This document shows positions 1,123 through 24,107 of a stretch of DNA of 64,000 nt, piece after piece. The notes beneath the pieces are model-generated. The model did no database searches and was not told the origin of the DNA. It saw only the letters and a list, made by a program, of their open reading frames with translations. Location: NCBI GenBank assembly GCA_028284345.1, contig JANQRY010000003.1, forward strand, positions 124,001-188,000. The letters are read 5' to 3'. The stretch is from Hyphococcus sp. GTDB lineage: Bacteria; Pseudomonadota; Alphaproteobacteria; Caulobacterales; Parvularculaceae. The position numbers and the translations under genes were made by a program. Within the stretch, counting starts at the first letter, position 1, and the number at the start of each line of letters is the position of its first letter.

Positions 1123-1138
1123 TGTTTGTATATGAACA
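1123..1138 (-). promoter_or_regulatory. Inverted-repeat operator upstream of the DJ-1 pair
   Basis: The plus strand reads TGTTTGTATATGAACA, with arms TGTT and AACA around a TATA-like centre. It closely resembles the site at 10996-11013 (TGTTTTGTATATCAAACA on the minus strand). The TATACA inside it on the minus strand could be the -10 box of the 1109 gene, so a bound repressor would block that promoter. The binding protein is inferred to be the local IclR regulator. Confidence 0.45.
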
Positions 1139-1167
1139 GTGCGGCGATCATCGCAAATCGCCGCACT
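1138..1167 (-). terminator. Hairpin between the TonB receptor and the DJ-1 pair
   Basis: AGTGCGGCGA at 1138-1147 and TCGCCGCACT at 1158-1167 form a perfect 10-bp stem with a 10-base loop, 22 bases past the stop of the receptor gene. There is no clear T tract after it on the minus strand, so it may be a weak or Rho-assisted terminator. Confidence 0.5.
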
Positions 1168-1188
1168 GATGCAAGGTGTCAGACGGTA

Positions 1189-3750
1189 TTAGTAACGAAG
1201 TCGTGTCGTAATACCGATCGTTCGCGGCCGAAACGTCGTCTGGGCGATAAAGCCTGTATCGAAGGCGCAGCCCGCGAGCGACAAGTCCGCGTTAAAGGAG
1301 CAGTTTCGACGACCTGTGTTCGTCGCAACCGTCCGGTCGTCCTGTGAGTTCAAGACATTGTCGACAAAGAGGGACACATCCCAAGCCCCGGTGCGGAAGC
1401 CGGCTCGCATCGAGAGGTATTCCGTCGGCTCGGCAATGTAGACATCCGGGGAGAACCCGTTCGTGCCCGAGCCGAAACCACGGGGATAGTCGCCTGTGTA
1501 TTGGAAATCGGCGCGACCGTAAATTTCCAAGCCCGCCGAGACCGGCATCTCGAACTGCGCGCCCAGACGGAAGCTCAGATCAGGCACAGACGCCGCGTCC
1601 CCATCCCGAATGAAAAGGGTTTCAATGCCGCTAACTTGAAGCGTCAGTTCTTCAAAGGTCGCGTCGACGTAGGAGACAGCGCCGTTGAGCGTGACATAGT
1701 CATGGAGTTGAACGACCATTCCGACATCCACGCCTTGCGACGTCATGCTGGCGGCGTTCGCGATAAACGCTGACCGGCAGTTCAGACGGGCGTTAACCTG
1801 CGTGTCCTTCCATTCAACGCGATAGGCGCTCGCATCGATGGACACACGGCCGTCGAACGGCTGAAGCTTCGTACCGATCTCGTAACTCCAGACCGAATCC
1901 GACTCATAGGGAATAGCCGGGATATCGGGGAAGCCTAACGAAGCAAGCTCAGCGTCGCAGGCCGGGCCAATCGGCGCGGGCGCAACGCCGCCGGGACGGT
2001 AGCCGCGCGTCGCCGTTGCGTAGGCCATATTGGCGTCGTCGAAGTAGTATTGCAGACCAGCCTTCGGCGACACCGCCGTTTCATTGATCTCCCCTTCGGT
2101 CAAGCCGAAGCCGTCGGTCGCTACTGTCCGACGAACCGTCGTGCCGAACGTCTCTTCCCGGTAAGCAAACCGAATGTCCGAGAAACGAACCCCGGCGAGA
2201 AGGTTAAGGCGATTGGTAATTCCAACCGTCACATCAGCGAAAAACGCCAACTCTTCTTCTGTCTGCTGGCTTTCCCGCGTGAAGTGCGCCTCGGGAAACG
2301 TATTGATCCCGAATACATCGATGGCGTCGCGGCCCTGGAGCCCCTGGAAAAGCGCATCGAGATTACCCGTCCATTGGCCGAGCGTCGTATTATCGAAGTT
2401 CTGATAGAACACGCCGGCGACAAAATCGATGCGTTCGGCGATATTACCGGTCAGCTGTAATTCCTGCGTGACGCCGCTCCGATCATTTTCAAAAAGGAAC
2501 GGGTTTCGGTAAAGCTCAATCGTTGGAATAAACGGTCGAACGCCAGTGCCGTTGAACGGCCCGAACAGGAAGAGATCCTGGAACGAGTTGTTCTTGTTGC
2601 CCGTCGTCAGATCGTGGGTGTAGGACGTGACCGACTTCAATTGCACGTCGCCAAGATCATAGGTCAGCGTCAGGCTGGGAACCAAAAGCTCCTCGTTTCG
2701 CTCTTCCAAGAGCACGCATTCTTCAACGACGTCCTGGAAGTCCTCGCCGACGTTACAATTGTTGCCTGTTCGGTACGGACCAAAAACGTCGTAAGCAGGA
2801 ACGTCGGCAGCCGGATGCGCTGGCGGAAACGGAAAGAAGGGCGACGTCGAGGGACGCGCCGGAAGCGAATAGCCGTCGACATTCGTCCAGTATTGATCGC
2901 TGTCCTTATAGGTGTTCCGTGAATAGTAGACCGACGGCTTGATGTCGAACCGATCGTTCGCACGATACAGGAAGGCTATCCGGCCCGATATCGCCTGTAC
3001 ATCGTTGGTGTTCTCATCGAGGACGCTGCCGTCGAAGCGCGAAACATGGTCAATGTAGCCGCCCACGCTCCGACCGTAGACGCTGGCCTGAAGACCAAGC
3101 TTGCCGGGAATAATCGGCGCACCGAATGACGCCCCGACTTCATAACTCGGATCGCCGTCTTTCGTGACCGCTCCCTCCGCGAGAGCCCGGATCCGGACAT
3201 CGTCAAGCGACGGCTGTGGCAGAACAAGGCGTATCGTGCCCCCGATTGAGGACCCGCCATATAGCGTGCCCTGCGGGCCGCGAAGCACCTCGACCCGCTC
3301 AAGGTCGAAAAACTGCGGAAAAGCCGTACCGTTTCCCTGGAAAGTGGAACCGTTGGCACGACGCGTGATCGGCACATCGTCGAGGAAGACGCCGACAGTC
3401 GGCGAGCCCGCCCCTGAGGTCAGGCCGCGAATAGTGATGGTTGAGCCGCCCGAGCTGTTCCCGTTTGTCACCGTCAATGACGGATCTACGCGACCCAGTT
3501 CTTCAGCGCTGTCGACGCCGAGGCCAACCATTTCATCACGGCTAACGACTGCGATACTGGCGGGAACGTCTGTAATCGCCGTCTCACGACGGGTCGCCGT
3601 TACGACAATCGTGTCGTCCCGTTCGATCGCATCGCCGCCCTGCTCGTCCTGAGCCTGCGCGGTCGTTGAAATCGCCAATGCGCTAACAGACGCCAGCAGG
3701 AAATAGCTGATACTAGCGCCACTCGATATTTTTTTAGTTTTTTCGGTCAT
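1189..3750 (-). CDS. TonB-dependent outer-membrane receptor
   Basis: The protein has 853 residues when started at ATG 3748-3750, which has GGGAGGGG just upstream; an in-frame start 28 codons earlier lacks such a site. It has a signal peptide ending near AQAQ (residue 34), a TonB-box-like DTIVVTA at 46-52, a plug domain with IRGL, FLDDVP and VEVLRGPQGTLYG motifs, and a long beta-barrel ending in the aromatic residue typical of outer-membrane proteins (final LRY). This type imports bulky organic ligands or siderophores across the outer membrane using TonB energy. It is transcribed alone, downstream of its own promoter with two inverted repeats. Location beside catabolic and transport genes suggests that it takes up the pathway substrate. 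The ligand cannot be read from sequence. Confidence 0.93.
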   Translation of the reverse strand: MTEKTKKISSGASISYFLLASVSALAISTTAQAQDEQGGDAIERDDTIVVTATRRETAITDVPASIAVVSRDEMVGLGVDSAEELGRVDPSLTVTNGNSSGGSTITIRGLTSGAGSPTVGVFLDDVPITRRANGSTFQGNGTAFPQFFDLERVEVLRGPQGTLYGGSSIGGTIRLVLPQPSLDDVRIRALAEGAVTKDGDPSYEVGASFGAPIIPGKLGLQASVYGRSVGGYIDHVSRFDGSVLDENTNDVQAISGRIAFLYRANDRFDIKPSVYYSRNTYKDSDQYWTNVDGYSLPARPSTSPFFPFPPAHPAADVPAYDVFGPYRTGNNCNVGEDFQDVVEECVLLEERNEELLVPSLTLTYDLGDVQLKSVTSYTHDLTTGNKNNSFQDLFLFGPFNGTGVRPFIPTIELYRNPFLFENDRSGVTQELQLTGNIAERIDFVAGVFYQNFDNTTLGQWTGNLDALFQGLQGRDAIDVFGINTFPEAHFTRESQQTEEELAFFADVTVGITNRLNLLAGVRFSDIRFAYREETFGTTVRRTVATDGFGLTEGEINETAVSPKAGLQYYFDDANMAYATATRGYRPGGVAPAPIGPACDAELASLGFPDIPAIPYESDSVWSYEIGTKLQPFDGRVSIDASAYRVEWKDTQVNARLNCRSAFIANAASMTSQGVDVGMVVQLHDYVTLNGAVSYVDATFEELTLQVSGIETLFIRDGDAASVPDLSFRLGAQFEMPVSAGLEIYGRADFQYTGDYPRGFGSGTNGFSPDVYIAEPTEYLSMRAGFRTGAWDVSLFVDNVLNSQDDRTVATNTGRRNCSFNADLSLAGCAFDTGFIAQTTFRPRTIGITTRLRY

Positions 3751-3786
3751 AACCCCTCCCGAATTCAAGCAATAAGTAGAAATTTT

Positions 3787-3816
3787 ACGATAAACGGAGT
3801 TTGTTTTGCTTGTCAA
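3787..3816 (-). promoter_or_regulatory. Sigma-70-like promoter of the TonB receptor
   Basis: On the minus strand a perfect TTGACA (3811-3816) is followed, after 18 bases, by TATCGT (3787-3792). Transcription would start about 30 bases upstream of the receptor start codon. The -35 box lies inside the palindrome at 3806-3820. Confidence 0.5.
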
Positions 3817-3836
3817 GCAACGTTTTGTAGACAAAA
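3806..3836. promoter_or_regulatory. Double inverted repeat over the receptor promoter
   Basis: Two perfect palindromes lie side by side. TTGCTTG-T-CAAGCAA occupies 3806-3820 and covers the -35 box. TTTTGT-AG-ACAAAA occupies 3823-3836. The second matches the GTTTTGTA core seen upstream of other operons in this region. The placement suits repression of the receptor gene. The regulator is inferred. Confidence 0.5.
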
Positions 3837-3905
3837 TTTAGTCGAAAGCACACACGACCGCAGACTCAGCGCGACGTCGCCCGCTCAACCGGCGGCGATG
3901 CCGGC

Positions 3906-5210
3906 CTAAGCCGCAGCGATTTTGCGTTGGGCGAATTTCCGACTTTTAAGCAGGGTGATTGCGCTGATCAGCGCGGCGAACAGAACATACAACGCCGGCG
4001 CCAGCTTGCTGCCGGTCATCGCGATCAGCGACGCAATGATAAAGGGCGCAAAGCCGCCGAAAAGCGTGACGGCGATATTGTACCCCATGGACATGCCCGT
4101 GGTTCGGGTTCTGACCGGAAAGAGATCAGACAAAAAGGCGGGCTGAGAGGAAAAGTAAGCCGTCAGCATCACGCCGAAAATGATTTGTACGGCGAGCAGC
4201 GTCCCCGCCGTCGGCGACGCGACGAGCCAGGCGTAGAGCGGCACCACGAGAACCGCCATGGCCACGGCCGCCGTCAACATGATCGGCGTTCGGCCAATCC
4301 GGTCGCCAAGCGCGCCAAAGGCGGGCGAAAGCGAAAACTGGATGACGCCGACGGCAAGGGTCGCGGTGAATGCAGCCGCCGGCAACATGTCGAGCTCGCG
4401 AACCGCATAGGTTGGAATAAAGAGAATCACATAGGTGGAAACGGTTCCCAACACCGTAATGCCGATGGCGCGCATGAGCGGGCTTAGCTGGGTTGTAAAC
4501 GTTTCCTTGAGCGGCGTCTTGGTGGTGTCGTCGGTGGATTCAGCAATCTGAAATTCCGGGGTTTCCGGCACGCAAAGCCGGATATAGAGCGCAACCGGGC
4601 CGATCAGCATGCCAAAGTAAAACGGCAACCGCCAACCCCAGGCTTCAAGCTCTTCCGGCGTCAAATAGGTGGAAAGCGCAACGCCGCAGCCGGAGGCGAG
4701 TAATGTGGTCAGGCCCTGACTGGCGATCTGCCAGCTGGCGAAAAACCCGCGCTTCTCTTTCGATTGCTCCGCCAGAAACGCGGTGGCGCTGGCGAATTCG
4801 CCGCCGGCGGAGAAGCCCTGGATGAGCCGCGCAAGAACAATGCCGAGCGGCGCAAGAAGCCCGATGCTCTCATAGGTCGGCATGAACGCGATCATGCCCG
4901 TTCCGATCATCATCAGCGTCGCAGCCACGGTCAGCGCTTTCATACGTCCCGCCCGGTCGGCGTATACGCCGAGAAACATGCCGCCCAACGGGCGCATGAG
5001 GAACGAGATCCCGAACGTCGCGAACGTTAAAAGAATAGCGGTCGTCGGGTTATCGGACGGGAAAAACAGCTTTGAGATCGTGACGCTCAAAAAACCGAAT
5101 ATGATGAGGTCAAACCACTCAAGCGCGTTGCCGATCGACGCGACAATGATCGCGCGCGCAGGGTGGATGCGTTTGATTTCAGGCGCCGCCGGCGTTTCTG
5201 TCGTTGTCAT
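3906..5210 (-). CDS. MFS transporter, metabolite:H+ symporter (MHS) type
   Basis: This 434-residue polytopic membrane protein has about 12 hydrophobic segments. The MFS signature GVYADRAGRMKAL follows helix 2, and the repeat GDRIGRTPIML lies in the second half. Length, the opening RAIIVASIGNALEWFDLIIFG and the overall pattern match the KgtP/ProP/ShiA group, which carries dicarboxylates, betaines, shikimate or aromatic acids with protons across the inner membrane. Its start codon is 3 bases from the stop of the M20 peptidase gene, so it is the last gene of the operon starting at 7723. The position suggests import of the substrate or of a deacylated intermediate. Substrate not determined. Confidence 0.88.
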   Translation of the reverse strand: MTTTETPAAPEIKRIHPARAIIVASIGNALEWFDLIIFGFLSVTISKLFFPSDNPTTAILLTFATFGISFLMRPLGGMFLGVYADRAGRMKALTVAATLMMIGTGMIAFMPTYESIGLLAPLGIVLARLIQGFSAGGEFASATAFLAEQSKEKRGFFASWQIASQGLTTLLASGCGVALSTYLTPEELEAWGWRLPFYFGMLIGPVALYIRLCVPETPEFQIAESTDDTTKTPLKETFTTQLSPLMRAIGITVLGTVSTYVILFIPTYAVRELDMLPAAAFTATLAVGVIQFSLSPAFGALGDRIGRTPIMLTAAVAMAVLVVPLYAWLVASPTAGTLLAVQIIFGVMLTAYFSSQPAFLSDLFPVRTRTTGMSMGYNIAVTLFGGFAPFIIASLIAMTGSKLAPALYVLFAALISAITLLKSRKFAQRKIAAA

Positions 5211-5212
5211 TA

Positions 5213-6409
5213 TTAATTACCTGCAGCTTTGCTCAGCAGAGCGTCGATGAACGTTTCACAGCGTCTGAGCTGATCCAGTTCGACAAATTCGTTGGGACGG
5301 TGCGCCTGAACAATGCTGCCCGGTCCGCAAATGATCGAAGGCACGCCAACTTCCTGAAATTGTCCCGCCTCGGTGCCGTAGGCGACCTTCTGAATGCCGT
5401 GGTCTTTGGCGAGCGCGCGAACGAGACGCGTAATTTCAGCGTTTTCATCAGCATCGAGGCCCGGCGCCGACGCAATTGTTTCAAAGGCGATGTTCGCGTC
5501 CGGCGACTCCGCCCGCATGCGCGGCAATATTGTTTCGTTAGCGTAGCGCTGAATTTCCGCGAGAATATCTGTCGCCATTGTTTGCGGAAGATTTCTGAAT
5601 TCAAAATCAAACCGGCATTCTTCCGGCACGACATTAGTCGCCGTCCCGCCCTGCACCATCCCGGTCTGCGCCGTGGAATAGGGCGTGTCGAAATATTCGT
5701 CGAACGGCCCTTCGGCCTTAAATTTGTCCGCAATGTCGCGGATAAAACAGATCAGCCGCGCGGCGTATTCGATGGAGTTCACGCCTTTTTCCGGCAAAGA
5801 ACTGTGCGCCGATTTCCCGTGCACGCTGCATCTGTGGATGTTGATGCCTTTATGGGCGACAACGACTTTCATGTCGGTCGGTTCGCCGACAATGCAGCCG
5901 CGCGGGCGCACGCCCCGGCGCACAAGCTCTTCAAGCATCAGCGGCGCGCCAAGACAGCCGACTTCCTCATCGAAAGAAAAAGCGAAATGGATCGGTTCGT
6001 GCAACGGCGCCGCGACGATGTCGTCGAGTTTCGACAACACAACGGCAATGAAGCCTTTCATGTCGGCCGAACCGCGCCCGTAGAGTTTCCCATCGCGAAT
6101 GACGGCCTTGAACGGATCGCTGTCCCAGTCCTGACCGTCAACCGGCACGACGTCGGTGTGCCCGGACAAAACAACGCCACCGGTCTCGCCGCCATTCCTG
6201 TCCGGAACGGTGGCGAAAAGATTGGCTTTATTTTTGTCGTCGTTAAGCGTCAGCCAGCAATCGACGCCGGCGCCCTTCAAGAGGTCCGCAATATGATGAA
6301 TAAGGTCGAGATTGCTGTTTCGGCTGGTCGTGTCGAAGGAAATCAGTTTCGACAGGATTTCAACGGAACGCATGTCGGACCCGGCCGACGCCACTACCGC
6401 CTCGCTCAT
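5213..6409 (-). CDS. M20-family N-deacylase, ArgE-like
   Basis: This 398-residue enzyme resembles acetylornithine deacetylase/succinyl-diaminopimelate desuccinylase. Metal-site motifs are intact: SGHTDVVPVDGQDW, YGRGSADMKGF, DEEVGC, GEPT and a late GSIVQAHRPNEF histidine. These enzymes use two zinc ions to remove N-acyl or N-formyl groups from amino acids. The genuine arginine-pathway argE normally stands alone, whereas this copy sits between a protocatechuate-dioxygenase-like pair and an MHS transporter in one operon. A catabolic N-deacylase or N-deformylase role is therefore more likely. The start ATG has GGGGAAG upstream. Family certain, substrate inferred. Confidence 0.88.
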   Translation of the reverse strand: MSEAVVASAGSDMRSVEILSKLISFDTTSRNSNLDLIHHIADLLKGAGVDCWLTLNDDKNKANLFATVPDRNGGETGGVVLSGHTDVVPVDGQDWDSDPFKAVIRDGKLYGRGSADMKGFIAVVLSKLDDIVAAPLHEPIHFAFSFDEEVGCLGAPLMLEELVRRGVRPRGCIVGEPTDMKVVVAHKGINIHRCSVHGKSAHSSLPEKGVNSIEYAARLICFIRDIADKFKAEGPFDEYFDTPYSTAQTGMVQGGTATNVVPEECRFDFEFRNLPQTMATDILAEIQRYANETILPRMRAESPDANIAFETIASAPGLDADENAEITRLVRALAKDHGIQKVAYGTEAGQFQEVGVPSIICGPGSIVQAHRPNEFVELDQLRRCETFIDALLSKAAGN

Positions 6410-6435: not shown

Positions 6436-7143
6436 TCACGACTGATCGAACATGGTGGGGCTTCGCCCGCCCACAACAATGTCGAACGTCGCTTTCGTAT
6501 CCACGCCTTCGCGCTCTGACGGCGCGACGGTTATCAGATGGCGTTCCTGCGCTTCGCCAAGAAGCTGAAAACACGGATCTTTTGCGAGGTGCTTGTCTCC
6601 CGCAAAATACATTTGCGTCACCAGACGGGACGACCCTCCAACCAACGAGAAATGCAGGTGGGACGGGCGCCATCGATCAATATCAGGGCGCGCCAGATAC
6701 GGGGCCGGATAGATGGTTCTGAAAAAATACCGCCCGTCGTCGTCGGTGACGGTCCGGCCAAATCCGAGAAAATTATCGTCAAGCGGCTCTCGCGCGGGGT
6801 CGTCCGCGTGGGTGTAGCGGCCCCATTTGTTCGCGCCCCACATTTCGATAAGCAAATTGCGCAAGGGACGGCCGAGACAATCGCGCACGGTCCCTCGCAC
6901 CTCAATGACATCGCCGGCCGCCATCGGCCGTCCGGGCGCGATGCGCGTCAAGTCGTTTTCGCCAATGCGCAACGCCGGAAGCCGTTCGATAAAGGGCGCA
7001 AAGGACGCCCGCGCCGCTTCCGGAATACGCCACAGGCGTTCCTTCGGCGTGCGCAAGGACGACGTTATATCGGTTTCGCCAACTTCCAGCTGGCGGCCCC
7101 GTTGCGCCGCAGGTCGACTGCGCTCGTCTGCCGCTTCACTCAT
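6436..7143 (-). CDS. Intradiol ring-cleavage dioxygenase, PcaH (beta)-like
   Basis: The 235-residue product aligns by motif with the beta subunit of protocatechuate 3,4-dioxygenase. The four Fe(III) ligands are visible: Tyr110 in WGRYTH, Tyr149 in YPAPYL, and His162 and His164 in RPSHLHF. RTIYP and TQMYFAGD also match the family. Such enzymes open catechol-type rings between the two hydroxyls using O2. ATG 7141-7143 lies 6 bases after GAGG and overlaps the upstream gene by 8 bases; an ATG one codon earlier is the alternative. The overlap with the alpha-like partner implies translational coupling into a heteromer. No pcaB, pcaC or pcaD is nearby, so the ring compound need not be protocatechuate itself. 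Confidence 0.85.
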   Translation of the reverse strand: MSEAADERSRPAAQRGRQLEVGETDITSSLRTPKERLWRIPEAARASFAPFIERLPALRIGENDLTRIAPGRPMAAGDVIEVRGTVRDCLGRPLRNLLIEMWGANKWGRYTHADDPAREPLDDNFLGFGRTVTDDDGRYFFRTIYPAPYLARPDIDRWRPSHLHFSLVGGSSRLVTQMYFAGDKHLAKDPCFQLLGEAQERHLITVAPSEREGVDTKATFDIVVGGRSPTMFDQS

Positions 7144-7723: not shown

Positions 7724-7734
7724 ATGTTTTCTGT

Positions 7735-7751
7735 ACAAAACGGCGTTTTGT
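7735..7751. promoter_or_regulatory. 17-bp palindrome in the leader of the dioxygenase operon
   Basis: ACAAAACG-G-CGTTTTGT is a perfect inverted repeat with 8-base arms, ending 12 bases before the start codon at 7723. It overlaps two copies of the regulon core in opposite directions: GTTTTGTAAGTCAAC on the plus strand and GTTTTGTACAGAAAAC on the minus strand. It may be an operator or, in RNA, a hairpin close to the start codon. Confidence 0.5.
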
Positions 7752-7789
7752 AAGTCAACTTATCTTTTCCAGCGGTGGTGCCCATCTTG

Positions 7790-7849: not shown

Positions 7850-8692
7850 ATGACAAACGACAATACGAGCGCCGGCGGCGCGGGGCTCAACAAAAATCAC
7901 GAAAACTACTTCGTGCCCGGTCTTCAGCGGGGGCTGAGGGTGCTGGAAGCCCTCGCCAGCGAGCGGCGCCCGCTCAGCACGACGGAAATCGCGAAAATGC
8001 TCTCCCTCACGCGCTCGTCCGCGTTCCGGCTCACCTACACGCTGCGCCATATGGGCTTTCTCGAACTGGCGCCCGGCTCGAAGGATTTTATTCTCGGACC
8101 GCGCGTCCTCAACATCGGTTTCGCCTATCTGTCGTCGAAAAGCATCATCGAAACCGCGCGCCCGGAACTGGAACGACTTCGCGACAACACAAACGTCTCA
8201 TCGCATTTGGGCATTCGCGACGGCCGGGAGGTTCTTTATCTCAGTTGCGCGCAAACCCGCTCCGGGTTCTTAAGCAACATGAATGTGGGCGCGCGCGTCC
8301 CGGCCTATGCAACGCCGCTGGGCTGGCTGTTGCTGTCCGACCTGCGGCCGCGGGAAATTACGAAGCTGTTTTCTTCCGAGGATTTTGAAGCCTTCTCGCC
8401 TCATACGCCCAAAAGCATCGACGAACTCATGACGCGCGTCACCGATGCGTCCCGTCGCGGGTACGTGATCAGCAACGGCCTTGCCGAAGTGGGCGGAAGT
8501 TCCGTCAGTGCGCCGATCTTTGACGACACCGGAAACATTATCGCAGCGATCGATATCTCCGGCCCGGATTCCGCGTTCAAACTTGAAGACCTTCGCGGCC
8601 CTTACAAGGACGCCGTCACATCCGCCGCGGAACGCATCTCTACCCGGCTCGGCTATGTCGATAAAGACTTTGTAATGAGCGAACCGTCCTGA
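7850..8692 (+). CDS. IclR-family transcriptional regulator
   Basis: This 280-residue protein has the IclR layout. An N-terminal winged HTH (about residues 20-85) includes LQRGLRVLEALASERRPLSTTEIAKMLSLTRSSAFRLTYTL. A C-terminal effector-binding domain (about 90-270) includes VSSHLGIRDGREVLYL, VGARVPAYATPLGWLLL, and GYVISNGLAEVGGSSVSAPIFD. IclR proteins usually control adjacent aromatic or small-acid catabolic operons and respond to a pathway metabolite. It is divergent from the dioxygenase operon and is the only regulator in the 27-kb accessory region. This makes it the best candidate for binding the recurrent GTTTTGTA..TCAAAC sites. I prefer ATG 7850; a TTG one codon earlier is possible. No clear ribosome binding site is visible. 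Confidence 0.93.
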   Translation: MTNDNTSAGGAGLNKNHENYFVPGLQRGLRVLEALASERRPLSTTEIAKMLSLTRSSAFRLTYTLRHMGFLELAPGSKDFILGPRVLNIGFAYLSSKSIIETARPELERLRDNTNVSSHLGIRDGREVLYLSCAQTRSGFLSNMNVGARVPAYATPLGWLLLSDLRPREITKLFSSEDFEAFSPHTPKSIDELMTRVTDASRRGYVISNGLAEVGGSSVSAPIFDDTGNIIAAIDISGPDSAFKLEDLRGPYKDAVTSAAERISTRLGYVDKDFVMSEPS

Positions 8693-10995: not shown

Positions 10996-11013
10996 TGTTT
11001 GATATACAAAACA
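10996..11013. promoter_or_regulatory. Operator-like inverted repeat in the divergent aminotransferase/CoA-transferase promoter
   Basis: The minus strand reads TGTTTTGTATATCAAACA, with arms TGTTT and AAACA around a TATAT centre that could serve as the -10 box of the leftward operon. It is nearly the same as the site at 1123-1138. A weaker relative, GTTGCTATCAAAAAC, lies at 11017-11031, so both divergent genes may be controlled from here. Confidence 0.5.
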
Positions 11014-11034
11014 TCAGTTGCTATCAAAAACAAG

Positions 11035-17707: not shown

Positions 17708-18222
17708 GGCGCGTCTTCCGCACAGTTTTCATCGGCGGCGATCTCGTTCAGTTTTACGTAGTGTTCCGACCGCGCCGCCCAGACCCCCTCGCGATAATCC
17801 CATCGCGCCTGATAAACGCCGGAAGACAATCGCGCGCCGCAAGGGGCGGACCACACGCCGGTCCAACGCCCCTGCTCCGCTGCCGTCGCGCCGTCCGCGG
17901 AAATTTCGATCACGCCCGGATTGCGCAGATAGGTCACAAACGCGTCGTTGCGAAAGACAGTTTCGAAGGCGGCGCGCATCTTTTCCCGCCCGCGGATCAC
18001 CGCGCCGCCGCTGGCGATCACCATTGCGTCCGTCTCCAGATGCGCCGCCGCCCCGGTCGCATCCCTCGCGGCAATCGCCTCGTTGGACGATTGACGGCGC
18101 GTCTCGATCGCCCTGATAGACTCGGCGTCCGAATTTGGCCGCTTTTCCACCGCCGAATTGGCGGAAATCGGCAGCATGATGCCGAGCGCCGCTGCGCCCC
18201 AAAGGACGCGGCTCAATTTCAT
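17704..18222 (-). CDS. Exported SnoaL/DUF4440-like protein
   Basis: The predicted protein has 172 residues with a signal peptide through about residue 23 (MLPISANSA) and then an NTF2-like region: IRAIETRRQSSNEAIAARDATGAAAHLETDAMVIASGG, then REKMRAAFETVF and a strand-rich end. This matches the DUF4440/SnoaL fold used by small isomerases, cyclases and binding proteins. The start ATG 18222 is chosen because the signal peptide begins there; an upstream ATG adds ten basic residues. It stands alone, convergent with the SDR gene, behind a promoter that overlaps a regulon-type repeat. Function unknown. Confidence 0.75.
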   Translation of the reverse strand: MKLSRVLWGAAALGIMLPISANSAVEKRPNSDAESIRAIETRRQSSNEAIAARDATGAAAHLETDAMVIASGGAVIRGREKMRAAFETVFRNDAFVTYLRNPGVIEISADGATAAEQGRWTGVWSAPCGARLSSGVYQARWDYREGVWAARSEHYVKLNEIAADENCAEDAP

Positions 18223-18260
18223 AGGGGTTAACCGCCAACGCTTGCACCGCATAGAGAGTT

Positions 18261-18289
18261 AATATATGAAACATCCGTTTGCTTGTGAA
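18261..18289 (-). promoter_or_regulatory. Promoter of the SnoaL-like gene
   Basis: On the minus strand TTCACA (18284-18289) and TATATT (18261-18266) are separated by 17 bases. The -35 box lies within the inverted repeat at 18276-18296, which could also serve the rightward gene at 18326. Confidence 0.45.
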
Positions 18290-18296
18290 CAAAAAC
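18276..18296 (+). promoter_or_regulatory. Operator-like site shared by divergent genes at 18.2 kb
   Basis: The sequence CGTTTGCTTGTGAACAAAAA is related to the left palindrome at 3806-3820 (shared TTTGCTTGT) and to the site at 24091-24107. From CCGTTT to about 30 bases downstream it resembles the upstream region of the gene at 24182: CCGTTT, AAAAAC, CGGG and TAGG occur in the same order. Confidence 0.45.
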
Positions 18297-18325: not shown

Positions 18326-19192
18326 ATGCAGAAGGTCATTAAACGGTCAGGGGCTATCGGCGTCGTTCTCGCCGGGCTTCTTGCAACTAGCGCGCTTTCA
18401 CAGCAGCCGCCGGCGACCGTTTCCGGGATGACGAAAGAAGAAGTCGTTGCGTACACCGTCGCCGACGAAAAACTTCCCACCGCAGATTCTGACGCTGTCC
18501 CCCGAAAAAACGGCAAACCCGATTTCAGCGGGCTGTGGCTTCAGGACCAGGGCATTCTGTTTTCCGACCCGACGCCAAAGCATCACAGCGGGTCGCATCC
18601 CGGCTATTTCGATTCCATTGATCCGCCGCCCTTCAATGACGAGTACGCCGCGCGGTATATAGCGTTCAAGGCGCGCACCGCGGAAAAGGGGTATAATCGC
18701 CTCTATGACTGCGATCCCCCGGGACAACCGCGCCTGATGGCCAATCCTTTCCCGATGGAACTCATTCAGACCGATGACAAGCTCGTCATGCTCTTTGAAT
18801 ATAAGAGCCAGATACGCCGCGCCTATATGGACGGCCGCGATCATCCGAGCGGGGATGTCTTCCTTGAATCCTATAACGGTCACTCGATTGGCAATTGGGA
18901 CGGCGAAACCCTGGTCATCGCTACGACGCTGATCAGCAACTGGGACGGCAAGCTCATCCAGATCACCGGCATCGAACACAGCGATGACCTGGAAACGGTC
19001 GAACGGGTGCGTTTCCTGACCCCGGATCGTATCGAGTGGGAAATTGAGATGATCGATCCCAATGTGTTCACCGAGCCGTGGGTGCTGCGCCGCAGTTTTT
19101 CGCGCATGTCGCTTGACATCGACGTTCCGGAATATGAATGCCTCGCCGGCGACCTGATTGACGAACTCGGCTACGAGGCCCCGGAAGAATAG
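18326..19192 (+). CDS. Exported protein of unknown function
   Basis: This 288-residue protein has a signal peptide ending near LATSALSQ (residue 26) and a strong ribosome binding site (GGAGGAGG). The mature part contains NGKPDFSGLWLQDQG, YDCDPPGQPRLM, QTDDKLVMLFEYKSQIRRAYMDGRDHP and SIGNWDGETLVIATT. The PDFSGLW and GRxHP plus WxGETLVI pattern is common in uncharacterised secreted proteins of sphingomonads and gammaproteobacteria, often encoded beside PQQ dehydrogenases and DUF6152 proteins, as here. A binding or accessory role in the periplasm is likely, but no reaction can be assigned. It is followed by the DUF6152 gene 36 bases later on the same strand. Confidence 0.8.
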   Translation: MQKVIKRSGAIGVVLAGLLATSALSQQPPATVSGMTKEEVVAYTVADEKLPTADSDAVPRKNGKPDFSGLWLQDQGILFSDPTPKHHSGSHPGYFDSIDPPPFNDEYAARYIAFKARTAEKGYNRLYDCDPPGQPRLMANPFPMELIQTDDKLVMLFEYKSQIRRAYMDGRDHPSGDVFLESYNGHSIGNWDGETLVIATTLISNWDGKLIQITGIEHSDDLETVERVRFLTPDRIEWEIEMIDPNVFTEPWVLRRSFSRMSLDIDVPEYECLAGDLIDELGYEAPEE

Positions 19193-19228
19193 CGCGATGG
19201 TGAACTATAACCGTTTTAGGAGATCGTT

Positions 19229-19693
19229 ATGAATCGCAGATTTTTATTGGTCTCAGCCGCTGCGATGATTGCCGCTGCTGTGCCGAGCGCGTCGGCGCAC
19301 CACTCTCATTCGGATTTCGACGTAGAACAGATGATCACGGTCTACGGCAAACTCGTAAGCGTCCGTTTTCGCAATCCTCATGTTCGTATGGAGATCGAGG
19401 TCACCCATATTTTCACGCGCAGCTTGAGCGATGAAAAGAGCGGCGCCATCGAAATGGATGAAAATGGATTTCCCGCCGGCGAACCGGTCACCCTGGACGA
19501 ACCGCAGATCTGGAAAGTCAGCGGACCGAGCCCCATCGACTGGACCCGCGACGGCTGGCGCAAAAGCGACCTTGAAGAAGGCGCGGAGGTCACCTTGACC
19601 GGCTTTGTGCCCAAAGACGAAGGCAAGCAGTACACCACGGTCAACCTGTTCATGAACGCGGACGGCAAGATTTACGACCCCCGCGCTTACTGA
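19229..19693 (+). CDS. Exported DUF6152-like protein
   Basis: The 154-residue product has a signal peptide ending at SASAHHSHSDFD, followed by a small beta-rich domain with ITVYGKLVSVRFRNPHVRMEIEV and a C-terminal LTGFVPKDEGKQYTTVNLFMNADGK. The HHSxSxFD start of the mature protein and the YGKLVSVRFRNPH strand are typical of DUF6152. Function is unknown, and a periplasmic accessory to an oxidoreductase is a guess from context. AGGAGA precedes the ATG. It forms a short operon with the preceding exported protein. Confidence 0.82.
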   Translation: MNRRFLLVSAAAMIAAAVPSASAHHSHSDFDVEQMITVYGKLVSVRFRNPHVRMEIEVTHIFTRSLSDEKSGAIEMDENGFPAGEPVTLDEPQIWKVSGPSPIDWTRDGWRKSDLEEGAEVTLTGFVPKDEGKQYTTVNLFMNADGKIYDPRAY

Positions 19694-19785
19694 CCAATCC
19701 GCGGTTTTCATTTCATCATTCCCGGTCCTGACAGGCATCGGGACGGACCATCTGCGCGCGCAGATCTCAGCGAAGGACATCAATC

Positions 19786-20451
19786 ATGTGGCGAAACTCT
19801 TTAACGATCATGGCTCTTTCGGTCGCACTGGCCGCGTGCGGCGACAATGGCGCAACGGCGTCAACCGCAGCGGACAACGCTGAAGCGCAAACCAGCGCGG
19901 CGGCGAGCATCACCCCCGCGCCCGCCATCCAGGATGCGGACGCCGGCGCCTACGCCGTGGATCCCGACCATGGCTACATTGCCTTCTCCTATACGCATCT
20001 GGGTCTCTCGAACCCGATTTTGCGCTGGGGCAGCTGGACCGGAGATCTCGATTGGAACAGTGAAAACCCGGAAGCCTCTTCGATCACCGTCGTTATCGAC
20101 GCGACATCCGTCGATTCCGGGGTCGAACGCTTCGACGGCCACCTTCAGGGCGCTGACTTCTTCGATACGGAGACCTATCCCGAAATACGCTTTGTCAGCA
20201 CCGACATCCAGTTGACCGGCGCGGAAAGCGGGACCGTCACCGGCGATTTAACGATCAAGGGAAAAACCCTTCCCGTCGCGCTTGACGTCGTCTTCAACGG
20301 CGCCGCGGCCGGCGATAAGGACAAGATCGGCTTCTCCGCAAAAGGCGCCCTGAAGCGCTCCGATTTCGGCATGGATATATACGCCGGCGCGGCGAGCGAT
20401 AATGTCGACGTGATCGTCGAGGCGGAGTTCGTCCAGATTGTAGCCGAATAA
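19786..20451 (+). CDS. YceI-family lipoprotein
   Basis: This 221-residue protein has a lipobox VALAACG with Cys18 as the lipidation site, then a low-complexity Ala/Thr linker to about residue 48. The YceI domain (about 52-221) includes YAVDPDHGYIAFSYTHLGLSN, FDGHLQGADFFDTETYPEIRF and GDLTIKGKTLPV. YceI proteins form a lipocalin-like barrel that binds polyisoprenoids such as quinones. Anchoring in the periplasm beside two membrane dehydrogenase systems suggests a quinone-related role. It lies 92 bases after the DUF6152 gene with its own AAGGA site. Its 3' end faces that of the PepSY gene 12 bases away. Confidence 0.9.
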   Translation: MWRNSLTIMALSVALAACGDNGATASTAADNAEAQTSAAASITPAPAIQDADAGAYAVDPDHGYIAFSYTHLGLSNPILRWGSWTGDLDWNSENPEASSITVVIDATSVDSGVERFDGHLQGADFFDTETYPEIRFVSTDIQLTGAESGTVTGDLTIKGKTLPVALDVVFNGAAAGDKDKIGFSAKGALKRSDFGMDIYAGAASDNVDVIVEAEFVQIVAE

Positions 20452-20463: not shown

Positions 20464-21960
20464 TCAGGCGTCGGATCCGTCCTTGGATGAAGGACGCACG
20501 GCGCGGCGCGTTTTGCGTGCAATGCGCCGCGCGCCGAGACAAACGCCCAAGAGACACAAGGCCGTAACGCCGACGACAAGCGGCGTGACGATGACGTCCC
20601 ATATGGGCCGGCGCCGCAAGCTTTCGTGGAAATCCAAGCGATGAAGACCGTAATGCAGCCACCGATAAAGCCGCGCTGCGCGATCGGTTTTTTGCAGTAA
20701 TTCGCCCGTCCTCGGATCGAGATAATACCGCGTGCGTTCCGCATCGTCGAAAATCAATCGCAACACCGGGAAAACGCGGGACTCATGGTGGCTGTAATAA
20801 AATGAATCCGCCCTGTTGAGGACGCGCGCCTCCACAAGATCCGCATCGGGCCGCAGGCGCGCGCCAAGCGATAGAAGTTGATCGTCAGAGAGAGCCGCAG
20901 GACGCAGCGCTGAGGTCAGCCGCATGGGATCGGCCTGCGCCCGTTCTGCGATAACAATCGGCTCTCCGTTTTGCATGATAAGGCGAAAGCGAACGATCGG
21001 CTCGGCCGGCGCAACGCGGAGCGCGACGATGACGCGATTAACATCAGCGCCGGTCACCGCGCCGCCGCTGATGTTTGCGCGTTCGCGCTCAGCGCCGGCG
21101 CTTTCGAATAGCCCCCAGGGATTCATCGAAAAAAGCCCGCTGACGACCCAGGTAAAGGTGAGAACGCCAAACGTAAGGCCGGTAACATGATGGAAAAGAG
21201 ACAGGCCCCGATAGGGCGAGAGACGTCCTTTGCCGCGACCGGTCTGCAGCAGCCCGATATAAAGGCCGCTCGCTGTCAGCCCCGCGCCGAGCACCGACGT
21301 CCACACGATGAATTGATACCAGGCGCTCGCGTGCTGACGAAACGCCGTGTAGTAAAGCCAGTGCGGCACCGCGCCGAGCCAGTTCCAGAACCGCTCCCGG
21401 CCGCCCGTATCCTGCACCACCGCGCCTGTGACCGACGAGACATACAGAACGGGATCGTTGGGCGCATCAAACGCTGCTTTAAAAAGCGGCCTGTGGGCGT
21501 GAAACCGGCTGTATACCGTCCACTGATCGCGTTCGACGATTTCGACGTCCTTTACGACCGCGCCCGCCTGACCGCGGGCCGCGAAATGCATTGCGGCGAT
21601 TGTCGCGGCGTCGTTCGCAGTGAAGGTTTCGGCGACAGCGCCATTGTCTAGATAGAGAACGCGCGCTTTAACGCCCCATTCTTTCCAGCGCAGGACCGGC
21701 CGCCCGGCCAGCATCTCGATATGGGCGTCGGCAAAGACCTCTTCCGCCGGCGCCCGCCACGGCGTTGCGATAGGCGCGACGGGATCAAGGCCGGCGCGCG
21801 CTTCGTCCGCCGTCAGTTCGGGAAACGCCACATACATCATGGTGACGCCGGAGGCGGCCCACAACGCCATCAGGCCGCCCAGGAAGATCCCAAGCCATCG
21901 ATGCGCGACAAAGACAAATCGCTTCAGCGTCTTTCCCTGAATGACAGAACCGCCTGTCAT
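20464..21960 (-). CDS. PepSY-associated inner-membrane protein (iron-reductase-like)
   Basis: This 498-residue protein has an N-terminal helix (FVFVAHRWLGIFLGGLMALWAASG), large periplasmic stretches and further helices around VLGAGLTASGLYIGLL, FGVLTFTWVVSGLFSMNPWG and a C-terminal VTPLVVGVTALCLLGVCLGA. HRWLG and the WVVSGLFSMNPWG segment are typical of PepSY-TM proteins, often linked to TonB receptors for ferric siderophores or other metal ligands and thought to reduce or unload them. It follows the TonB receptor gene by 6 bases on the same strand, so it is in that operon. Redox function is inferred from family. Confidence 0.87.
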   Translation of the reverse strand: MTGGSVIQGKTLKRFVFVAHRWLGIFLGGLMALWAASGVTMMYVAFPELTADEARAGLDPVAPIATPWRAPAEEVFADAHIEMLAGRPVLRWKEWGVKARVLYLDNGAVAETFTANDAATIAAMHFAARGQAGAVVKDVEIVERDQWTVYSRFHAHRPLFKAAFDAPNDPVLYVSSVTGAVVQDTGGRERFWNWLGAVPHWLYYTAFRQHASAWYQFIVWTSVLGAGLTASGLYIGLLQTGRGKGRLSPYRGLSLFHHVTGLTFGVLTFTWVVSGLFSMNPWGLFESAGAERERANISGGAVTGADVNRVIVALRVAPAEPIVRFRLIMQNGEPIVIAERAQADPMRLTSALRPAALSDDQLLSLGARLRPDADLVEARVLNRADSFYYSHHESRVFPVLRLIFDDAERTRYYLDPRTGELLQKTDRAARLYRWLHYGLHRLDFHESLRRRPIWDVIVTPLVVGVTALCLLGVCLGARRIARKTRRAVRPSSKDGSDA

Positions 21961-21966
21961 GCCGCG

Positions 21967-23976
21967 TTAAAACGTGAACGTATAATATCCATAAAGCGTG
22001 CGCGGCGTTCCGAGCGCGTCGGCGCCGTAGGAGGTTCCGTCGGAATCCCGTCTGACCCGGCGCACCTGTGTTGCGTATTCATTGTCAAACACATTCTCAA
22101 GACGCAGGCGAATGACATGCCGGCGCGAGCGGTCGAGATAGACACGGCCGGAGAAGTCGAGCACCGCGTAATTTCCATGCTCGACGCGCCCGACCCCGCC
22201 AGAGACCCGGTCATAAACGTCGCCCACGTAATTCAGCGCCAGGCCGGCGCCGACCGGAAGCGCGTCAGGCGACCAGTCAAGCTGAAACTTCACCAGATCG
22301 ACGGGAACGTCCCGAATCTGTTCGCCGCTGTTTTCCAGTTCGGCTTCGGTATGGGTGTAATCGACAGTCGCAGTCAGGCCCTCATGGAGAACGGCGCTCG
22401 CGAAAACCTCAACACCCCAGGTCTTCACCTCTTCATCCGTATTCACCAGAAAGCCGTCAGGGAATGCGGGCAGCGAAAAGTCGATGCCGATCAGATCTTC
22501 GACGCGCCGGGAAAAGCCGATCACTTCCCATGAAAAGCGGTCCGTTCGCCCGCCGATCGCAGCCTCGAGATTAAAGCTCTCTTCGCCGACTAGGTTTGGG
22601 TTGCCCGTCTCGCAGCAGGGATCGATGACATATAATTCGTAGGCAGACGGCAGTCGGAAGGACGTTCCCACCTGCCCGCGGGCAAACAGGCCGTCGATAA
22701 TGTCAATTTCGCCGGAGACGTTCCACACGGTTTTGCTCTGTCCGTCGGACGGCATGTTGTGCCGCACGCCGGCCGCGAGGCGCGCCCCTTTTAGCAGGTC
22801 CAGATTGAGCCGCGCCTGCCCGAACGGCGCGTGAACGCTTTCGCTCTGCTGACCGATCAGGAACTCGTCGTCGCGCCCGTCATAGGTCTGAAAGTCATAG
22901 CCGATAAGAATGTCGAGATTGGACGTCGCCGCGTATTGCGACAACACGTTGACGCCCTTGTCGGTAAAGCGCCAGATGGCGGCGTCCGAAATAGTATTGA
23001 GCGCGCCCGTCGGCAGCCCGTCAACGCCGAGCACGTTGTCGATGCGCGTGAACGTCGAATCCCAGTCGTGCCAGTAGCCTTTCACGAAGACATCGAGCCG
23101 GTCGGTCGGCGACCAGTCGATCTTGGCCGAAACGATATCTTCGTTCCGGGCGTTGAACCGGACGGCGCTGTCCTCGGCCGTCGCAAAATCAAGCTCCGCA
23201 TCCGTGTGCTGCCAGGACGCCGTGAACCGAAGATCGGCGCCAAGGGCGACGCCGTATTTGGCGCCGAACGTCATGACGTCGTACCCGCGCCGGCGGTCGG
23301 TTGCGCTCGGCTGATAGTCTTCGTCGCGAAAGGGCTGGAAGCCGTCCGCTTCGTCCGCCGACCCGTAGACGACAAAGCGATGGGGCCCGAGCCCGCCGCG
23401 AGCGTAGGCGTTGAAGTGCCGCCCGCCATTGGTGTTGAACCCGCCGGTAACTGATCCTTCGGTCTCGGACGTGAAGGATTTGGTGACCACGTTGATGACG
23501 CCGGCCACGGCCTGGGTGCCGTAAAACAGCGCCTGGCCGCCCTTCAAGACTTCGATCCGCTCGACCATATTAGCGGGCAACGTGTCGAGCGGCGTGGTCG
23601 AATTATAAAGCCGGTTGGAAATGCGCACCCCGTCCACCAGCCACAGGACTTCCGTTTGACGCGACCCCTGAAGCGAGACATTGACGTAGTCAAAGGCGCC
23701 GTTTTTCGGCGCCACATAGAGGCCCGGCACAAGGTTCGAGAGCGCCTGCGAGATGTCGGCGTAGCCGCCGTCGCGGATCTGTTTGGCGGTGATGATTTCT
23801 ACGCGCGACCCGTATTCCGCAAGATCCAGCGGCAGGGATTCTTCCAGGCGCTCGCCCCAGACATAGATGGTCTCCGGGCTTTCGGGGCGGTCGCCGTCCA
23901 TGCTCTGCGCCGCGGCGCCGGCGGAAAAAAAGGCGGCGCAGGCCGCCGCCCGAACAATCCAAGCTTTCGTCTTCAT
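21967..23976 (-). CDS. TonB-dependent outer-membrane receptor
   Basis: The protein has 669 residues from ATG 23974-23976, with GGGGAGCG upstream. It has a signal peptide ending near AGAAAQ (residue 24), a probable TonB box ETIYVWG, a plug with VEIITAKQIRDGGYADISQALSNLVPGLYV and VERIEVLKGGQALFYGTQAVAGVINVVTK, and a barrel closing with YGYYTFTF. The plug resembles BtuB/FepA-type receptors for compact ligands. It is much shorter than the receptor at 1189-3750 and is not its duplicate. Its partner gene is a PepSY membrane protein. An upstream regulon-type site (24049-24067) suggests co-control with the catabolic genes. Confidence 0.93.
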   Translation of the reverse strand: MKTKAWIVRAAACAAFFSAGAAAQSMDGDRPESPETIYVWGERLEESLPLDLAEYGSRVEIITAKQIRDGGYADISQALSNLVPGLYVAPKNGAFDYVNVSLQGSRQTEVLWLVDGVRISNRLYNSTTPLDTLPANMVERIEVLKGGQALFYGTQAVAGVINVVTKSFTSETEGSVTGGFNTNGGRHFNAYARGGLGPHRFVVYGSADEADGFQPFRDEDYQPSATDRRRGYDVMTFGAKYGVALGADLRFTASWQHTDAELDFATAEDSAVRFNARNEDIVSAKIDWSPTDRLDVFVKGYWHDWDSTFTRIDNVLGVDGLPTGALNTISDAAIWRFTDKGVNVLSQYAATSNLDILIGYDFQTYDGRDDEFLIGQQSESVHAPFGQARLNLDLLKGARLAAGVRHNMPSDGQSKTVWNVSGEIDIIDGLFARGQVGTSFRLPSAYELYVIDPCCETGNPNLVGEESFNLEAAIGGRTDRFSWEVIGFSRRVEDLIGIDFSLPAFPDGFLVNTDEEVKTWGVEVFASAVLHEGLTATVDYTHTEAELENSGEQIRDVPVDLVKFQLDWSPDALPVGAGLALNYVGDVYDRVSGGVGRVEHGNYAVLDFSGRVYLDRSRRHVIRLRLENVFDNEYATQVRRVRRDSDGTSYGADALGTPRTLYGYYTFTF

Positions 23977-24048
23977 CAACGCTCCCCCTGTCGGCGAACT
24001 TAACCGGACGCCGCTTCTCGTCCGGCATCGGTGTTTAAATACGAACTA

Positions 24049-24067
24049 TAAGTTGACATACAAAACA
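24049..24067 (-). promoter_or_regulatory. Regulon-type site upstream of the second TonB receptor
   Basis: The minus strand reads TGTTTTGTATGTCAACTTA. It differs at only two positions from CGTTTTGTAAGTCAACTTA upstream of the dioxygenase operon (7744-7762, plus strand). This is the strongest pairwise match among the sites. It lies about 70 bases before the receptor start codon. Confidence 0.5.
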
Positions 24068-24090
24068 CAGCCGATAAATTTGTGCAATCC

Positions 24091-24107
24091 GTTTCGTTCG
24101 TAAAAAC
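24091..24107 (+). promoter_or_regulatory. Operator-like repeat upstream of the PQQ dehydrogenase operon
   Basis: GTTTCGTTCGTAAAAAC has GTTT/AAAC arms and resembles the site at 18276-18296 in both sequence and flanks. It lies about 75 bases before the first gene of the rightward operon. Confidence 0.4.

Follow-up and report, generated by a model that had tools for sequence, protein, structure and literature searches.

The closest described counterparts of the control system reported here belong to the IclR family. For group 1 of the family the operator consensus GKTYCRYW3-4RYGRAMC has been given, and in 94 of 181 orthologous groups of the family the sites are predicted to be tandem palindromes 18 to 22 nt apart (Suvorova and Gelfand 2021, PMC8222616). 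PheR of Sphingobium sp. SHPJ-2 is an IclR repressor of an aromatic operon, and transcriptomics indicates that its deletion raises the expression of TonB/ExbBD and of a TonB receptor (PMC13273656).

We analyzed a 64,000-nt stretch of Hyphococcus sp. DNA (the window), the first 27 kb of which hold a catabolic cluster. Since predicted operators lie before most operons of the cluster and recur with the same regulator gene in distant bacteria, control of the whole by one IclR-type switch is very probable. Its genes are as follows.

255 to 1109, minus strand: DJ-1/PfpI family protein (PF01965)
1189 to 3750, minus strand: TonB-dependent receptor 1 (PF00593, PF07715)
3906 to 5210, minus strand: MFS metabolite symporter (PF00083, PF07690; TIGR00883 below cut-off)
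5213 to 6409, minus strand: M20 deacylase, acetylornithine deacetylase-like (PF01546; NF005710 and TIGR01892 above cut-off)
6436 to 7143, minus strand: intradiol dioxygenase, beta-type (PF00775)
7136 to 7723, minus strand: intradiol dioxygenase, alpha-type (PF00775)
7850 to 8692, plus strand: IclR-family regulator (PF09339, 6.2e-15, 55.2 bits; PF01614, 2.3e-32, 112.4 bits)
8743 to 9618, minus strand: beta-keto acid cleavage enzyme, BKACE (PF05853, 6.9e-98)
9628 to 10974, minus strand: class III aminotransferase (PF00202; NF005685 above cut-off)
11160 to 12338, plus strand: class III CoA-transferase, first gene of a rightward catabolic operon, start uncertain (PF02515)
12335 to 17707, plus strand: rest of the CoA-transferase operon (Pfam matches), namely SMP-30 lactonase-like protein, DapA-like protein, 2Fe-2S protein, NAD/FAD oxidoreductase, DAO-type oxidase and SDR, in a gene order kept in relatives
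17704 to 18222, minus strand: SnoaL/DUF4440-like protein (Pfam)
18326 to 20451, plus strand: protein without a Pfam match, DUF6152 protein and YceI protein
20464 to 23976, minus strand: PepSY-TM protein and TonB-dependent receptor 2 (Pfam)
24182 to 27084, plus strand: two DUF6644/DUF2214-like proteins and a PQQ-dependent dehydrogenase (Pfam)

The regulator carries an N-terminal HTH_IclR domain and a C-terminal IclR effector domain, both above cut-off, which places it in the IclR family. TIGR02431 is its best NCBIfam match, with a score (175.5 bits against a cut-off of 284.75) too low for the PcaR/PcaU/PobR subfamily, and the BhcR profile NF045644 likewise gives 144.6 against 350 bits. YTLRHMGF, a stretch of the HTH, is shared by 14 of the 16 regulators in an alignment without L051, L052, L056 and L064. 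In agreement with the original prediction, a Pfam search of the 25 proteins encoded in 1 to 27 kb found this IclR as the sole regulator, the first protein of the 18326 operon being without a match. The nearest solved chains of the beta-type dioxygenase are protocatechuate 3,4-dioxygenase beta chains; because both subunits fall under the TIGR02422/TIGR02423 cut-offs (beta, 173.5 vs 296.4; alpha, 111.5 vs 126.25 bits), we name them only intradiol dioxygenase and give no substrate. The PQQ-dependent dehydrogenase scores 637 bits with TIGR03074, under the cut-off of 832.65. Sarcosine-oxidase, quinate and hydroxyproline pathway names, considered from profile matches, were dropped as unproven.

The motif that had been described as GTTTTGTA-N2-TCAAAC is instead a 16-bp, even-centred, AT-rich palindrome of approximately GTTTKRTATAYMAAAC, with the half-site GTTTKRTA. 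The usual operator combines a strong and a weak copy with 19 bp between their centres. Six predicted operators were located, with scores in bits from a matrix of other genomes described below.

1123 to 1138, O1: single palindrome TGTTTGTATATGAACA before the DJ-1/PfpI-family gene, score 16.9
3803 to 3837, O2: tandem before the first TonB receptor gene; weak copy 3803 to 3818 (8.8), strong copy 3822 to 3837 (16.6), tandem 25.4
7726 to 7760, O3: tandem between the divergent dioxygenase alpha-subunit and IclR genes; 17.7 and 9.9, tandem 27.6
10997 to 11031, O4: tandem between the divergent aminotransferase and CoA-transferase genes; 24.0 and 8.0, tandem 32.1
18257 to 18291, O5: tandem between the SnoaL-like gene and the 18326 gene; 17.1 and 3.9, tandem 21.0
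24032 to 24066, O6: tandem between the second TonB receptor gene and the DUF6644/PQQ-dehydrogenase operon; 10.0 and 15.7, tandem 25.7

Five of the six have the 19-nt tandem (3803/3822, 7726/7745, 10997/11016, 18257/18276 and 24032/24051), within the 18 to 22 nt between centres that is usual, not obligatory, for the family. O1 is a single site, its would-be partners scoring -9.7 at -19 and -12.5 at +19. O4 is the top-scoring site of the window, and its 16-mer is the only place in the genome with 0 mismatches to GTTTKRTATAYMAAAC. Site centres lie 10 to 83 nt before the nearer start codons (O1, 21.5 nt upstream of the DJ-1/PfpI gene).

Most of the previously listed sites correspond to genuine AT-rich repeats (1123-1138, 3803-3837, 7726-7760, 10997-11012, 18276-18291 and 24051-24066), and 7744-7762 does differ from 24049-24067 at 2 of 19 positions. 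We rejected 24091-24107 (score 10.1, absent from the 25 best tandems), and the supposed overlapping copies at 7735-7751 proved to be two adjacent 16-mers, 7726-7741 and 7745-7760. Positions 3806, 18276 and 7745 each mark the weaker half of a tandem, and two halves had escaped notice: a strong one (18257-18272) and the partner of the 24051 site (24032-24047).

The repeated motif is real. The pattern GTTTTGTANNTCAAAC, allowing up to 3 mismatches, has 7 matches in the window, compared with a mean of 2.05 and a maximum of 6 in 100 shuffles. The matrix was derived from 10 operator pairs found in relatives (13 loci), with the window and the Sphingobium locus L048 kept out and the identical pairs of L050, L051, L052 and L056 entered once; its training sites were chosen by eye with the window motif already known, so that step was not blind. 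It detects six sites of at least 15.7 bits in the window, all within the 11 gaps that the first 27 kb contain and none in the rest of the 64 kb; the next best single site scores 12.0. This count was reached by 0 of 2,000 column-permuted matrices and 0 of 2,000 dinucleotide shuffles of the gaps, at a threshold that is post hoc because 15.7 is the score of the sixth site (thresholds of 12, 13.5, 15.7, 18 and 20 were all chosen with scores known). The top five window tandems score 21.0 to 32.1 and the next 9.0. The copper operon and later genes (25,001 to 64,000) lack the operator, as had been proposed: their best tandem is 7.3, and no single site reaches 15.7 (best, 12.0 at 27680).

Hits scattered at random over the genome had been named as counting against the proposal, and on this point the evidence is mixed. 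Single sites with up to 3 mismatches number 35, against 47 for the reversed control; this is chance level, and we discarded such counts as a measure of specificity. Only the tandem form proved specific to the cluster within the DNA examined. In 38 other stretches of the same genome (420,749 bp), which were mostly chosen for motif matches and therefore are not a random background, 12 single sites reach 15.7, none has a 19-bp partner, and the best tandem is 12.8; the stretches cover 30 of 31 outside single-site matches, C7:878312 being left out. The pairs C4:631431/631789 and C5:989688/989921 were rejected as further regulon members, no tandem of at least 15 being present there. An Infernal profile of 20 relative tandems placed three of four own-genome matches in the cluster (150 of 210 candidates scored), namely O3, O4 and O5 with weak E-values of 0.44 to 1.3, and one outside it (C5:386641, E 0.505). 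Matches at E<=1 occur in 5 of 59 other related genomes, none of which has the IclR gene at E<=1e-40. The asymmetric consensus GTTTTGTATGTCAAAC has 19 matches, compared with 2 for its control, a result given little weight because it was fitted to window sites.

We considered whether the repeats might be merely AT-rich, sigma-70-like promoter elements, alike as promoters are. O4 does hold TTGATA-N17-TATCAA, at each of the six sites the best hexamer pair, inside or adjoining, matches 8 to 10 of 12 consensus bases, and most gaps are lower in G+C than the window's 61%. However, the permuted matrices and shuffled gaps fall short of the observed counts, three of the five tandems still exceed all 838,914 background tests with the hexamers masked, and the other DNA of this genome, with nothing above its 12.8-bit tandem, must hold promoters too. 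This explanation is thus most improbable.

The same operators recur in other genera at corresponding promoters beside orthologous IclR genes, which upholds the original reading of one regulon under IclR. In seven held-out loci, none used in training (L048, L055, L059, L064, L094, L101 and L102; IclR 46 to 73% identical), a site was found at the equivalent promoter in five, while L055 (a short contig) and L064 (a partly deleted cluster) have none of at least 13.5. L095 (44%) and L103 (39.7%) stand outside the seven by an identity limit fixed afterwards; with L095, which has no site of at least 12 in 3.8 kb, the tally is five of eight. The HTH differs in L095, but also in the operator-bearing L094. 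In Rhizobium leguminosarum the AT3/CaiB (aminotransferase/CoA-transferase) tandem scores 41.0 bits and the dioxygenase/IclR site 19.3 bits, and in Sulfitobacter 35.5 and 23.1 bits; nearby amino-acid ABC transporter genes of R. leguminosarum have no site of at least 13.5. A plasmid search matched 31 records, all below 60% identity, three of which were inspected. The Novosphingobium plasmid record (39.7% IclR) was without the core cluster in the 16.8 kb examined and has a 20.2-bit site before another operon.

True operators of a different regulator encoded elsewhere, whether another IclR or a different HTH family, would also give such repeats. Palindromes of this size suit many HTH families, and this genome encodes five IclR-family proteins. 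Yet the loci of the other four (3.4 to 3.5 kb) have no site of at least 12 bits; three of these proteins are about 22% identical to the 7850-8692 protein and one does not align. The operator accompanies orthologues of this IclR in several genera, and in four partly annotated regions (L048/L100, L050, L101 and L102) the IclR alone was seen in all, the others being MarR (two), LysR (two), GntR, AbrB and AraC-like (one each). The 19-bp tandem is moreover an IclR-family trait as described in PMC8222616. We therefore regard control by another protein as improbable, and it is highly likely that the sites are operators of the 7850-8692 regulator and that the region is one regulon.

How far this regulon extends can be judged from individual sites. 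O3 and O4 are common to most relatives (the O3 equivalent is present in L048, L059, L061, L101 and L102, and the O4 gap likewise holds a site), as expected if IclR controlled a conserved core of dioxygenase/IclR and AT3/CaiB alone and the TonB2, 18326 and DJ-1 sites were chance or decayed. The 18257 and 24032 tandems also weaken under hexamer masking, the 1123 site is single, and in L048 two closer DJ-1 homologues have no site of at least 13.5 in front. In Sphingobium subterraneum, however, sites precede TonB1, dioxygenase/IclR, the 18326 homologue, a PQQ dehydrogenase and AT3/CaiB, and a further one lies in the gap beside a DJ-1/AraC-type gene. The TonB1 site is at L048:5691-5725, two sites (17687-17721 and 17791-17806) precede a gene of L048 72% identical to the 18326 gene, and a 22.1-bit single site (L099:3789-3804) lies upstream of a PQQ-gene homologue (37% identical). 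All four Infernal rows (three places) in S. subterraneum fall in its own cluster, one place being outside the training set. The window tandems at 24032 (25.7) and 18257 (21.0) also stand far above the next best 9.0. A regulon limited to the core is thus unlikely, and we prefer the wider one.

Binding of these sites by the 7850-8692 protein is what we infer from their form, specificity and conservation with the regulator, all obtained by computation. The 19-bp spacing is about two helical turns, so two dimers or one tetramer would fit the same face of the DNA. The operators would serve the dioxygenase operon and the regulator's own gene, the aminotransferase, CoA-transferase and 18326 operons, both TonB receptor genes, the PQQ-dehydrogenase operon and, through a single site, the DJ-1 gene, a placement by which the region would respond as one regulon joining uptake and PQQ-dependent oxidation to intracellular breakdown. 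The regulator probably represses, a proposal weaker than that of binding, given the position of the centres close to the start codons and the -35-/-10-like hexamers in both O4 palindromes. A pathway compound would release the regulator from DNA. Our guess at the substrate is a catechol-type or hydroxyaromatic molecule that has an amino-acid-like portion.

More tentatively, the regulon may be portable and serve a catabolic pathway not described before, with one IclR and an AT-rich variant operator wired to host-specific uptake systems. Its enzymes would be the intradiol dioxygenase, BKACE, class III aminotransferase, CoA-transferase, DapA-like and sarcosine-oxidase-like proteins, carried on large genome contigs and on plasmids. 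In this genome and in Sphingobium the uptake partner would be a TonB receptor with an MFS symporter; Oceanibium would have an NMT1-like binding protein in that role, and a MAG one of family 3 (amino-acid type). This suggests that uptake systems are swapped while the pathway core is conserved and the operator stays the same. With the -35- and -10-like hexamers of the core promoter inside both palindromes, repression by occlusion would be direct. For a group of IclR regulators the analysis yields an operator model tested by computation; it also proposes pathway membership for otherwise seemingly unrelated genes, including outer-membrane receptors and the PQQ dehydrogenase, and narrows a direct binding test to one protein and a few promoters. 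The cluster is not named in the titles and abstract openings returned by literature searches; the supplementary tables of PMC8222616 may already include this regulog.

Among known systems, PcaR/PcaU/PobR of the beta-ketoadipate pathway share the best profile match, TIGR02431, and intradiol dioxygenase gene neighbors, whereas our regulator is below the TIGR02431 cut-off. The pca operons have a gene set unlike that of this cluster, with its BKACE, CoA-transferase, DapA-like protein and DAO-type oxidase. PheR is similar as an IclR regulator of an aromatic operon linked to TonB receptor expression, but its essential motif, as described, is GCAACG within a 44-bp footprint (PMC13273656). The operator departs from the group 1 consensus, the core C/G being T/A, and its GT-12-AC geometry fits subgroup iv. 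With the group 1 subgroup NGTYCRAW4TYGRACN, as presented in PMC8222616, it shares the even center, the GT-12-AC geometry, the AT-rich center, tandems 18 to 22 nt apart and the location of most sites 20 to 80 nt before the start codon, while the conserved C/G of the published core is T/A here. The type of control system is thus already known, and what is new, and well supported, is an IclR regulon for this catabolic cluster.

Seventeen loci with related IclR genes (49 to 73% identity) were located in named genomes. Nine of them share the gene order IclR, beta-keto acid cleavage enzyme (BKACE), aminotransferase, divergent CoA-transferase, SMP-30, DapA-like, 2Fe-2S, and two oxidoreductases, while the remaining loci hold parts of it. 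The gap upstream of the aminotransferase gene of these relatives (in L060, upstream of the CoA-transferase gene) contains a pair of palindromes with 19-bp spacing. A symmetric, 16-column matrix was derived from 10 distinct pairs from 13 of the 17 loci, with the window and L048 excluded; the training sites were picked by eye with the originally predicted motif, GTTTTGTA-N2-TCAAAC, already known, so that their selection was not blind.

In the window, this matrix scored at least 15.7 bits at six places, 10997 (24.0), 7726 (17.7), 18257 (17.1), 1123 (16.9), 3822 (16.6), and 24051 (15.7), all within gaps of the catabolic region (the first 27 kb); the seventh-ranked site reached only 12.0 bits. Among partner spacings of 12 to 40 bp, 19 bp was far ahead (mean of 5.14 over the six sites; runner-up, −3.02), and the five tandems with a second copy at this distance scored 32.1, 27.6, 25.7, 25.4, and 21.0, the following one scoring 9.0. 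The candidate operators and the regulator gene are as follows.

1123..1138, single palindrome (O1)
3803..3837, tandem (O2)
7726..7760, tandem (O3)
7850..8692, + strand, IclR-family regulator gene
10997..11031, tandem (O4)
18257..18291, tandem (O5)
24032..24066, tandem (O6)

The maxima were 4 gap sites and 4 tandems for 2000 column-permuted symmetric matrices, and 2 sites and 1 tandem for 2000 dinucleotide shuffles of the gaps. An unfiltered run of a tandem profile on just the window listed 14 matches at E ≤ 10; 12 of them, including the eleven best, came from the six operators. The original prediction, at least eight AT-rich promoter-gap sites, is essentially correct but inaccurate in places: the matrix scan lends no support to a site at 24091, and the strong site 18257 and the partner at 24032 are additions. 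IclR, which had been proposed as the only local regulator, is the sole one shown by Pfam among the region's 25 proteins (the protein encoded at 18326 has no match). Elsewhere in the window, an AT-rich inverted repeat at 49164-49198 (TGTTTAACATGTAAC ... GTTACATGTTAAAC), in the gap upstream of an open reading frame at 49190, is perhaps a candidate operator of a different regulator.

Sphingobium subterraneum (L048, L099, L100) lies outside the matrix training, as do Sulfitobacter sp. SK012, Rhizobium leguminosarum GLR17, L094, L059, L055, L064, and L095, described below. Its cluster has sites upstream of the homologue of the first TonB-dependent receptor gene (TonB1) and between dioxygenase and IclR, two sites in the gap preceding the homologue (72% identical) of the gene at 18326, a single 22.1-bit site upstream of a PQQ-dehydrogenase gene, and a tandem in the aminotransferase/CoA-transferase gap. 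Another tandem (L100:7132-7166) has a PLP-enzyme gene on one side and, on the other, a DJ-1/AraC-type gene whose mechanically called start it overlaps; ornithine cyclodeaminase-like and PLP-enzyme genes adjoin an operator here (L100:5088-7081). In L048, neither of the two closer DJ-1 homologues is preceded by a site of at least 13.5 bits; located downstream of TonB1 on the same strand, both may belong to its operon.

In Sulfitobacter sp. SK012 and Rhizobium leguminosarum GLR17, where the core cluster is plasmid-borne, the aminotransferase/CoA-transferase tandem scores 35.5 and 41.0 bits and the dioxygenase/IclR site 23.1 and 19.3 bits, respectively; the amino-acid ABC transporter genes in the vicinity of the R. 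leguminosarum cluster lack a site of at least 13.5 bits. The Sulfitobacter cluster adjoins sulfatase-like genes, a formylglycine-generating enzyme, and a tripartite tricarboxylate transporter, a hint of a sulfated substrate in that organism. L094 (same class; IclR, 61%) has a 32.3-bit tandem directly upstream of the aminotransferase gene, and L059 has a single 25.0-bit site between dioxygenase and IclR. In relatives, operators also precede other uptake genes: the site at L063:6742-6776 stands upstream of a gene at 6790 for an NMT1-like binding protein, and that at L049:2303-2318 upstream of a gene at 2392 for a family 3 solute-binding protein. A 23.2-bit tandem (L049:5237-5271) lies at the 5′ end, as called, of an open reading frame matching an ABC transporter permease. 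No site of at least 13.5 bits was found in L055 (a 3.6-kb contig) or in Bosea lupini (L064), where the IclR match is in two pieces and the cluster is partly deleted, perhaps a decaying copy; BKACE abuts a dioxygenase beta match there. L095 (IclR, 44% identical) has no site of at least 12 bits in 3.8 kb. On Novosphingobium resinovorum plasmid pHR1a, a 20.2-bit site (L103:11193-11208) lies upstream of an operon that encodes an aromatic ring-hydroxylating dioxygenase, with two IclR genes nearby; the motif may be common to related regulators.

The HTH stretch YTLRHMGF occurs in 14 of 16 aligned regulators. Since the exceptions are L094 (YTLQLTGF), with an operator, and L095 (YTLESLGF), without one, this stretch is not by itself predictive of the site. 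The regulator gene was found in none of 59 other related genomes at E ≤ 1e-40 and in 2 of 384 other genomes sampled across the class at E ≤ 1e-60 (with no more than 6 candidates scored in each). This patchy distribution of the cluster, taken together with its occurrence on plasmids, is suggestive of horizontal spread.

Genome-wide, a pattern search for the single palindrome with up to three mismatches returned 35 places versus 47 for the reversed control, and such matches therefore carry little meaning; only 10997 matched without mismatch. Thirty-eight own-genome stretches (420,749 bp), selected mostly because of motif hits, contained 12 single sites of at least 15.7 bits, none with a 19-bp partner (best tandem, 12.8), and no site of at least 12 bits occurs within the loci of the four other IclR proteins found in the genome. 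An Infernal profile of 20 tandems of relatives, applied to the whole genome with 150 of 210 first-look candidates scored, gave four matches at E ≤ 10, namely O3, O4, O5, and one outside the cluster (C5:386641; E = 0.505), and did not reach O1, O2, or O6. Such E-values are weak: with the same model under stricter filters, E ≤ 1 was reached in 6 of 60 related genomes, this one included. In the whole S. subterraneum genome, four rows at E ≤ 5 correspond to three places, all inside the cluster; two are in the profile's training set, the PQQ site being outside it. The TonB1 site (itself a training member), the 17791 site, and two L100 sites were missed.

The repeats could merely be promoter elements, as O4 holds TTGATA-N17-TATCAA. 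With the hexamer columns masked, however, 7726, 10997, and 3803 remained above all 838,914 background tests, while 18257 was equalled or exceeded by 15 under one mask and fell out of the top ten under the other, and 24032 had 25 and 84 tests at or above it. The repeats therefore exceed promoter elements, two operators depending partly on promoter-like columns. Site centers lie 10.5 to 82.5 nt upstream of the nearer start codons and 97 to 156 nt upstream of IclR, the CoA-transferase gene CaiB at 11160 (start uncertain), and the first DUF6644-like gene. Because of these positions and the embedded hexamers, control by repression is more likely than activation, although unproven.

From the enzymes and transporters, we would guess at a substrate that combines an amino-acid-like with a catechol-like moiety; BKACE homologues reportedly often occur together with protocatechuate 3,4-dioxygenase genes (PMC6449761). 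Within 24182-27084, two small DUF6644/DUF2214-like proteins are encoded upstream of the PQQ dehydrogenase, whose TIGR03074 alignment begins only at position 118 of 783; our guess is that they may act as a separate membrane anchor.

Comparison among genomes supports well the predicted operators and their assignment to one regulon, with the IclR protein encoded at 7850 as the putative binder of the motif, some site details apart. Such a regulon would be ordinary in kind. PMC8222616 describes IclR regulators as binding DNA as dimers or tetramers and predicts tandem palindromes 18 to 22 nt apart for 94 of 181 IclR orthologous groups, which the 19-bp tandems fit closely. The GT-12-AC geometry of subgroup iv, as described there, is also present here, although the core is C/G in that subgroup and T/A in these operators.
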